From the NCBI RefSeq assembly GCF_011758655.1, contig NZ_JAAMPA010000003.1, positions 124,001 through 188,000 on the forward strand: 64,000 nucleotides of DNA, in the 5' to 3' direction. The notes beneath the pieces were generated by a model, which saw nothing but the letters and a program-made list of their open reading frames with translations, was not told the origin of the DNA and searched no databases. The position numbers and the translations under genes were made by a program. Source of the stretch: Modestobacter marinus (GTDB taxonomy: Bacteria; Actinomycetota; Actinomycetes; Mycobacteriales; Geodermatophilaceae). This document shows, piece after piece, positions 5,328 through 6,476 of the stretch (position 1 is its first letter; each line of letters begins with the position of its first letter).

Positions 5328-6293
5328 TCAGCGGTGGGCGGGGATCCCGAGCAGGCCGGCCACGAAGTGGAGGCGCTGGGGCACCGGGCACCCGGTGGCA
5401 TCGAGGATGCGGTTCATCATCTCGAAGTTCGCGCACACGCCGACGGCTGCGGCGGTCACCCGAGGGTCGGCCGCGCGGGTCAGTGCCTCGCGGCTCTCGT
5501 CGAGCCGCAGCCCGGTCGCCATCGCGGTGGCGAGGTCGCGGAGCTCGCGTCCCCAGCGGAGCCCGGGATCGATGTCGGTGTCGGTGACCGCACGGAGGTC
5601 CGCGGGCGTCCCGGTCGTCTTCTGCACACTCGCACGGAGCATGTTCGCGTGGGCGATCAGCTAGTAGAAGCAGTCGTTGAGCAGTGACACGCGGGCGGCG
5701 AGCAGCTCCATCTGAGCGCGGGACAGCACGTCCTGGTACGCGAGGTCGGCCATCTGCTCGGTGCTCAGGTAGAGCTGGCTGTGGAGCTGGTCCCGAGCCT
5801 CCTCCTCGGCCGGCACGGAAGAGAGCGCGAAGCGTGCACCGTCCTCGGGGTCGGTGGGCACGAAGGCACTGCGCCACCGGACCTGCTCGTTGCGTCGACC
5901 CGTGGGCTCGCCCGACCCGGGCTCAGGGAGGGGCTCCTCTGTGGAGCCGACTCCCCGCACGTAGGAGTCCACGGCCGCCAGCCGGCTGACCACGCCCACG
6001 ACCTCGACGTACTGCTCGACGGCCATGCCCCGGGCCTGCAGGTCGGCGACCCAGTCCCGCGTGATGAGGTGGGCGGCGGCCGACACCGACTGCGCAGCCT
6101 CGCCCAGCAGGACGGGGAGTCCCGTGTCCCCGTCGCCGAACGTGCGTGCCGCGCGCGCCTCCCGGGCGACGGCCACCCGTTCGGGCCCGGTGAGCCACGA
6201 CCCCGCGGCGGCCAGCCGCGTCCACTCGCGGCGCAGCTCTGCCCGTACCGCATGCGGTAAGGGCAGCACGGCATCGGCCAGTTCGAAGCTCAC
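5328..6293 (-). CDS. AhpD-like peroxidase family protein with in-frame UAG at the active site (candidate UAG-encoded selenoprotein)
   Basis: The frame from GTG 6293 (GGGAAGG eight bases upstream; GTG 6302 is an alternative) encodes 210 residues to N-D-C-F-Y. A TAG codon at 5661-5663 follows, then 110 further codons in the same frame to TGA at 5328. Across the TAG the protein reads C-F-Y-X-L-I-A-H, exactly the CxxC-x3-H signature of AhpD-type alkylhydroperoxidases: Cys208, X211 and His215, with X at the peroxidatic cysteine. The part after TAG keeps typical family features, including a second helical stretch with V-G-V-C-A-N-F-E-M-M-N-R. Residues 1-140 are a less conserved all-helical domain. 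The simplest reading is selenocysteine inserted at UAG, supported by the hairpin at 5625-5643 and by published UAG-programmed selenoproteins in Geodermatophilus and Blastococcus (recalled, not checked). A nonsense-mutated pseudogene is the alternative. Confidence 0.8.
5625..5663 (-). promoter_or_regulatory. UAG codon with downstream SECIS-like hairpin
   Basis: UAG occupies 5661-5663. Counting downstream on the minus strand, bases 18-24 (5637-5643, CAUGCUC) pair with bases 30-36 (5625-5631, GAGUGUG) in a 7-bp stem with two G-U pairs, capped by the 5-base loop CGUGC, whose second base is G. The loop begins 25 bases after the recoded codon. As I recall the bacterial SECIS model, it needs an apical loop about 16-37 bases after the codon with a G in its first two positions, and this fits. 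The hairpin lies in coding sequence, as bacterial SECIS elements do. The pairing is by eye. Confidence 0.55.
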
Positions 6294-6400: not shown

Positions 6401-6476
6401 TGGGGTGAGTGACGGGACTTGAACCCGCGACATCCAGGATCACAACCTGGCGCTCTACCAGCTGAGCTACACCCAC
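6401..6476 (-). tRNA. tRNA-His (anticodon GUG)
   Basis: A full cloverleaf is visible on the minus strand: acceptor arms 6470-6476 and 6405-6411 (one G-U pair), the D arm, an anticodon stem CCAGG/CCTGG enclosing the loop TTGTGAT with anticodon GTG, and the T arm with GGTTCAAGTCC. The discriminator is C and CCA is encoded (6401-6403). The base at 6477 would give the G-1 typical of tRNA-His. It lies downstream of orn in the same orientation, a common actinobacterial arrangement. Confidence 0.95.

Follow-up and report, generated by a model that had tools for sequence, protein, structure and literature searches.

UAG-encoded selenocysteine and bacterial SECIS elements

The stop codon UAG is reportedly decoded as selenocysteine (Sec) in Geodermatophilaceae, where Mukai et al. 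are said to have described this in 2016 for formate dehydrogenase (FDH) and for UGSC-motif proteins. In another instance, the AhpC gene of Blastococcus saxobsidens was presented as a UAG-Sec gene with a bacterial SECIS (bSECIS) element (Santesmasses et al., 2017; PMC5330540). According to the bSECIS consensus, the apical loop lies 16–37 nt from the Sec codon, the loop comprises 3–9 nt and the upper stem 4–16 bp, and one of the two leading loop positions is a G, with G or U as the usual next base (PMC13188914). The family NF041238 has itself been counted among the selenoprotein families, as an AhpD-related protein with a CxxU motif from the Sargasso Sea metagenome (PMC13188914).

The gene considered here, from the soil actinobacterium Modestobacter marinus, shares with the known UAG-Sec genes (FDH, UGSC and AhpC) the family Geodermatophilaceae, a tRNASec with the anticodon CUA, and a UAG followed by a bSECIS hairpin; however, it encodes a member of another protein family, the AhpD-related NF041238, of antioxidant type. 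UAG-Sec, known in Geodermatophilaceae, is seen here in a further gene, and an AhpD-related enzyme family is added to the UAG-encoded selenoproteome of these bacteria. No paper naming NF041238 proteins with a UAG was found in the literature searched; the family is absent from the list in PMC5330540, and the same holds for the 2016 work in so far as it is represented in that source.

With the selenoproteins of NF041238 that use UGA, the present gene has in common the family, the Sec site, the distance to the hairpin and the loop types. It differs from them in having UAG instead of UGA and in the residues after Sec, which are mostly T-x-x-H in the UGA proteins and LIAH here. The E. coli fdhF SECIS and the bSECIS consensus model resemble the present element in having an apical stem-loop 16–37 nt downstream of the Sec codon and a small loop with G and then G or U among its first bases; they differ from it in the codon, UAG here, and in the loop, CGUGC here in place of GGUCU. 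Several UGA homologues and the FDH gene of the same genome do have GGUCU loops. This FDH gene is the second UAG gene found (L092, G000:C1, about 884–887.5 kb; NF041513, 1946 bits), and, as in the AhpD-related gene, its UAG is followed by a hairpin of 7 bp whose loop has 5 nt (GGUCCCC-GGUCU-GGGGACC). It differs from the AhpD-related hairpin in its loop, GGUCU, in a first loop base 19 nt after the UAG, and in a far stabler stem.

An AhpD-related gene with an in-frame UAG

The window, which is the whole stretch of 64,000 nucleotides that was analysed, has a GC content of 74.6% and comes from a 5.1-Mb genome in 12 contigs. The AhpD-related (seleno)protein gene lies on its reverse strand at positions 5328–6293, with a GTG start at 6293 and a TGA end at 5328. 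The gene contains a single in-frame UAG, the putative Sec codon, at 5661–5663 (reverse strand), and the product obtained by reading through it comprises 321 residues, of which residue 211 is Sec. This codon corresponds to the second position of a CxxC redox motif, NDC-F-Y-U-LIAH; in the translation, the Cys of the resulting CxxU motif (residue 208) is encoded at 5670–5672 (reverse strand). The product matches the NCBIfam model NF041238, AhpD_rel_CFYUT ("alkylhydroperoxidase-related (seleno)protein"), with 222.5 bits against a cut-off of 175, and is matched by the Pfam family CMD as well. For annotation, the consequence is that standard gene calling would end the gene at residue 210. A tRNA-His gene (6404–6476, reverse strand; detected with Rfam, anticodon GTG according to ARAGORN) is located directly upstream of the selenoprotein gene; the orthologues checked have none beside them.

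A hairpin within the bSECIS limits

The initial annotation had reported a 7-bp stem formed by 5637–5643 and 5625–5631, closed by a CGUGC loop that starts 25 bases past the UAG and has G as its second base, and direct reading of the sequence confirms this description. The hairpin spans 5625–5643 on the reverse strand (5′ arm 5637–5643, loop 5632–5636, 3′ arm 5625–5631) and reads CAUGCUC-CGUGC-GAGUGUG from 5643 to 5625. Between it and the UAG lies a 17-nt spacer (5644–5660, reverse strand), the length of which is identical in all homologues. All seven pairs form (C-G, A-U, U.G, G.U, C-G, U-A and C-G), two of them as wobbles. Counting from the UAG, the loop starts at base 25, so that 24 nt separate the Sec codon from the apical loop, and this distance, the 5-nt loop and the 7-bp stem all fall inside the bSECIS limits. 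The loop, C-G-U-G-C, has its G at the second position and then a U, in agreement with the consensus.

As a single sequence, this hairpin carries little information. Downstream of 13.9% of all window positions there is a hairpin of at least 7 bp that obeys the bSECIS rules, and the exact geometry is found at 0.15% of the positions; when the codons of the window gene were redrawn synonymously, 7 bp formed 8% of the time. The hairpin alone is therefore weak evidence for recoding and barely beyond chance. The initial annotation had held that it favours decoding over readthrough or mutation, which does not follow from one copy, a GC content this high making such hairpins frequent; the argument holds once conservation is taken into account. 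The hairpin on its own was accordingly dropped as a proof of recoding, equally good ones being present at 14% of window positions.

The stem is also weak in energetic terms, at −5.6 to −6.7 kcal/mol with its two wobbles; the isolated 19-nt element has −5.6 kcal/mol and a z-score of −2.3. Minimum-energy folding had been proposed as a check on the stem, with its absence counted as a refutation, and the result depends on where the folded segment begins: a start at +1, taken naively, goes against the stem. For the window copy, the stem is absent from the minimum-energy folds of 42–60 nt taken from +1 (pair probability 0.05), which are dominated by a competing structure of −12.8 kcal/mol for 42 nt. 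When the first 13 or so bases are left out (start at +14), the stem becomes dominant with a probability of 0.95–0.97, and in the other five orthologues it reaches about 0.95 by a start at +14 or +16. While a UAG occupies the A site, about the first dozen bases beyond it sit in the mRNA channel of the ribosome. Folding from +1 is thus the wrong test, since these bases are held in the ribosome, and it was dropped as a decisive criterion; the alternative fold needs bases that would lie inside the ribosome and is unconserved, varying among the six orthologues while the 19-nt hairpin is constant.

Comparative evidence from homologues

A search of 112 Geodermatophilaceae genomes yielded five further full-length orthologues with 72–82% identity, each with a single TAG, giving six genomes in all. 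The UAG and all seven pairs are kept in 6/6 genes of this UAG clade; the comparison within the family that had been suggested as a check on the stem thus shows it conserved wherever the UAG is. Outside the family, NF041238 occurs in 59 of 298 genomes of another order of the phylum, almost always with one TGA, while class-wide sampling returned the own genome only. The UAG stands at the Sec/Cys catalytic site of a selenoprotein family, as the codon aligned to it is TGA in 68 homologues and TGC in three. The 68 TGA homologues, from other families of Actinomycetota, have the hairpin at an identical distance (these counts exclude L112, of a different subfamily with a hairpin that is not alignable, and L141, which was missed by the motif filter). 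Three distant family hits with a TGA (L027, L029 and L033) were rejected, because the TGA terminates the gene upstream and the CMD proteins of these genomes have CxxC.

Covariation was assessed with 66 distinct sequences and 500 shuffles as a control. The proportion of paired cells was 92.2%, compared with 84.2% in the shuffles, and the covariation score was 0.283 versus 0.168. Double-sided compensatory cells numbered 21 against 5.3 in the shuffles, none of the 500 reaching the observed value, so that the compensating stem changes which the initial annotation had proposed looking for are indeed seen across the homologues. For four of five measures no shuffle was as high as the observation, and for the fifth 2/500 were. 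The structure is thus conserved by compensatory change, as in a bSECIS. These changes affect four pairs: the outer pair (G-C/C-G/U-A/A-U), the next (C-G/A-U/U-A), one with G-C/U-A, and the pair at the loop (C-G/U-A). When the partner arm was slid, pairing fell to 28–53%, and RNAalifold, unaided, returned the same seven pairs.

In a further comparison, each protein was kept fixed and its codons were redrawn in 3000 simulations. A 5-bp core is intact in 56 of the 68 UGA genes, compared with 3.0 expected and a maximum of 11, and in 6/6 UAG genes compared with 1.0 expected; as related sequences are counted individually, these figures are not probabilities. The outer two pairs are frequently broken in the UGA homologues, and this pattern suggests that the functional core of the hairpin may be 5 bp. 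A G stands at loop position 1 or 2 in all 74 Sec genes, mostly with U after it, in loops such as CGUGC, GGUCU, CGUGA, AGUUC and similar ones. For the Leu codon within the stem, 73 of the 74 use CTC, and in the one with CTT the opposite arm carries an offsetting G-to-A change. Across the homologues, the hairpin signal is far beyond chance.

Translation beyond the UAG was considered separately. For the six UAG genes, dN/dS amounts to 0.21 upstream of the UAG and 0.26 downstream of it, and this resemblance indicates that the tail is translated. Within the downstream part, dS is 0.29 at the hairpin and 0.67 over the rest, as is expected of an overlapping RNA signal.

Two of the three Cys (TGC) homologues (L128 and L130) have lost the hairpin, and the third (L129, G942:C434) retains one, CTGCTC-CGGGC-GAGC, which may perhaps reflect a recent Sec-to-Cys change.

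Selenocysteine machinery and use of UAG

The genome contains one strong tRNA-Sec (C3:284342-284433), which scores 65.8 bits with the covariance model and has the anticodon CUA. It adjoins selD, and selA-selB are located about 8 kb away. With tRNASec(CUA), selA, selB and selD, the genome holds the complete set by which a UAG-Sec system is defined, and it departs from the canonical UGA/tRNASec(UCA) system in both codon (UAG) and anticodon (CUA). A tRNASec(CUA) is likewise present in 6/6 genomes holding the AhpD-related UAG gene. In its geometry, its conservation among orthologues, its covariation among homologues and the machinery that accompanies it, the hairpin agrees with the bSECIS-like reading proposed in the initial annotation. 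RF1 is also present, and the UAG must therefore be contested. Among gene-like open reading frames of at least 200 aa in the window, 33/33 end in TGA and 0/33 in TAG, and elsewhere in the genome 4/48 of those at other loci end in TAG (a heuristic gene set in both cases). The rarity of UAG as a terminator may have eased its reuse.

Proposed recoding and competing explanations

The element at 5625–5643 (reverse strand) is, with high confidence on comparative grounds, a bSECIS that would direct SelB to insert Sec at the UAG of an AhpD-related CxxU protein. While the UAG (5661–5663) occupies the A site, the stretch of mRNA not yet in the entry channel would fold into the 7-bp hairpin, SelB with Sec-tRNASec(CUA) would presumably bind its loop through C-G-U, and Sec would be delivered at the UAG instead of termination by RF1. 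The outcome would be an AhpD-related redox protein of full length whose active site is Cys-x-x-Sec and which presumably serves as a peroxidase or thiol oxidoreductase. The bSECIS reading is convincing because of the comparative evidence, that is, conservation and covariation, and not because of the single hairpin.

It is extremely unlikely that the UAG terminates translation, either as a genuine stop or through a recent nonsense mutation, leaving a pseudogene or a protein truncated to 210 residues, and that the hairpin is a by-product of GC-rich coding. The 14% background of equally good bare hairpins in the window would suit this explanation, as would the sporadic occurrence of the gene, found in 6/112 genomes of the family and reduced to about its first 70 codons in G004. 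Against it stand the UAG at the Sec/Cys site in 6/6 orthologues, the purifying selection downstream (dN/dS 0.26), the conservation and covariation of the hairpin, and the full Sec machinery with a matching anticodon. Other forms of UAG readthrough, through pyrrolysine, a suppressor tRNA or a programmed event without SelB and with the hairpin only as a stimulator, are very improbable as well. ARAGORN labels the CUA tRNA "tRNA-Pyl", although owing only to its anticodon; the covariance model identifies it as tRNA-Sec, its position beside selD and close to selA-selB agrees with this, and UGA and Cys at the aligned site in homologues point to Sec. The PylS profile gave no match above its cut-off of 178 bits in the genome, the sole PylS-like match being a weak one of 21.9 bits.

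There is similarly little probability that the functional element is a longer fold starting right after the UAG, like the extended stem of E. coli fdhF. Such a fold is the minimum-energy structure of the window copy, but it differs between orthologues, and conservation and covariation fall on the 19-nt hairpin.

A probable exchange of the Sec codon

In a tree of 77 proteins rooted at the midpoint, the UAG genes form one clade (support 100/100) nested within the UGA genes, with a support of 90/74 for the sister relation. Of 49 tRNASec genes in Geodermatophilaceae, 41 have the anticodon CUA and eight UCA; among the latter, seven (L035–L040 and L043) are their genome's sole copy, in fragmented assemblies from three genera. 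The occurrence of tRNASec(UCA) in three genera suggests that the anticodon probably changed inside the family. The simplest account of these sequences would be that, following the anticodon change, the Sec codon moved from UGA to UAG while the hairpin stayed as it was. It is likely that the codon at a single Sec site was naturally swapped, with the distance, the core stem and the CGUGC loop unchanged; recognition by SelB and the SECIS would in that case be blind to the identity of the stop codon. If this is true, only the anticodon of tRNASec had to move. The UGA and UAG genes offer a matched pair, with the same site and hairpin, in which the indifference of SECIS and SelB to the stop codon becomes testable.

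Two further genomes of the family deserve mention. In G004, a gene remnant (L020, G004:C48:30518-30721) consists of the first 70 or so codons followed by unrelated sequence, the part with the UAG and the hairpin being missing. G059 has two tRNASec genes, the usual one with CUA near selB and a divergent one with UCA (L034 and L182, G059:C17; L079, G059:C11), together with only one selB that passes the cut-off. The contig with the UCA copy is 69 kb long, and its first 12 kb have 67% GC and contain transposase-like genes; this copy could stem from contamination, or it could be a tRNASec(UCA) that is mobile, in a bacterium with UAG-Sec.
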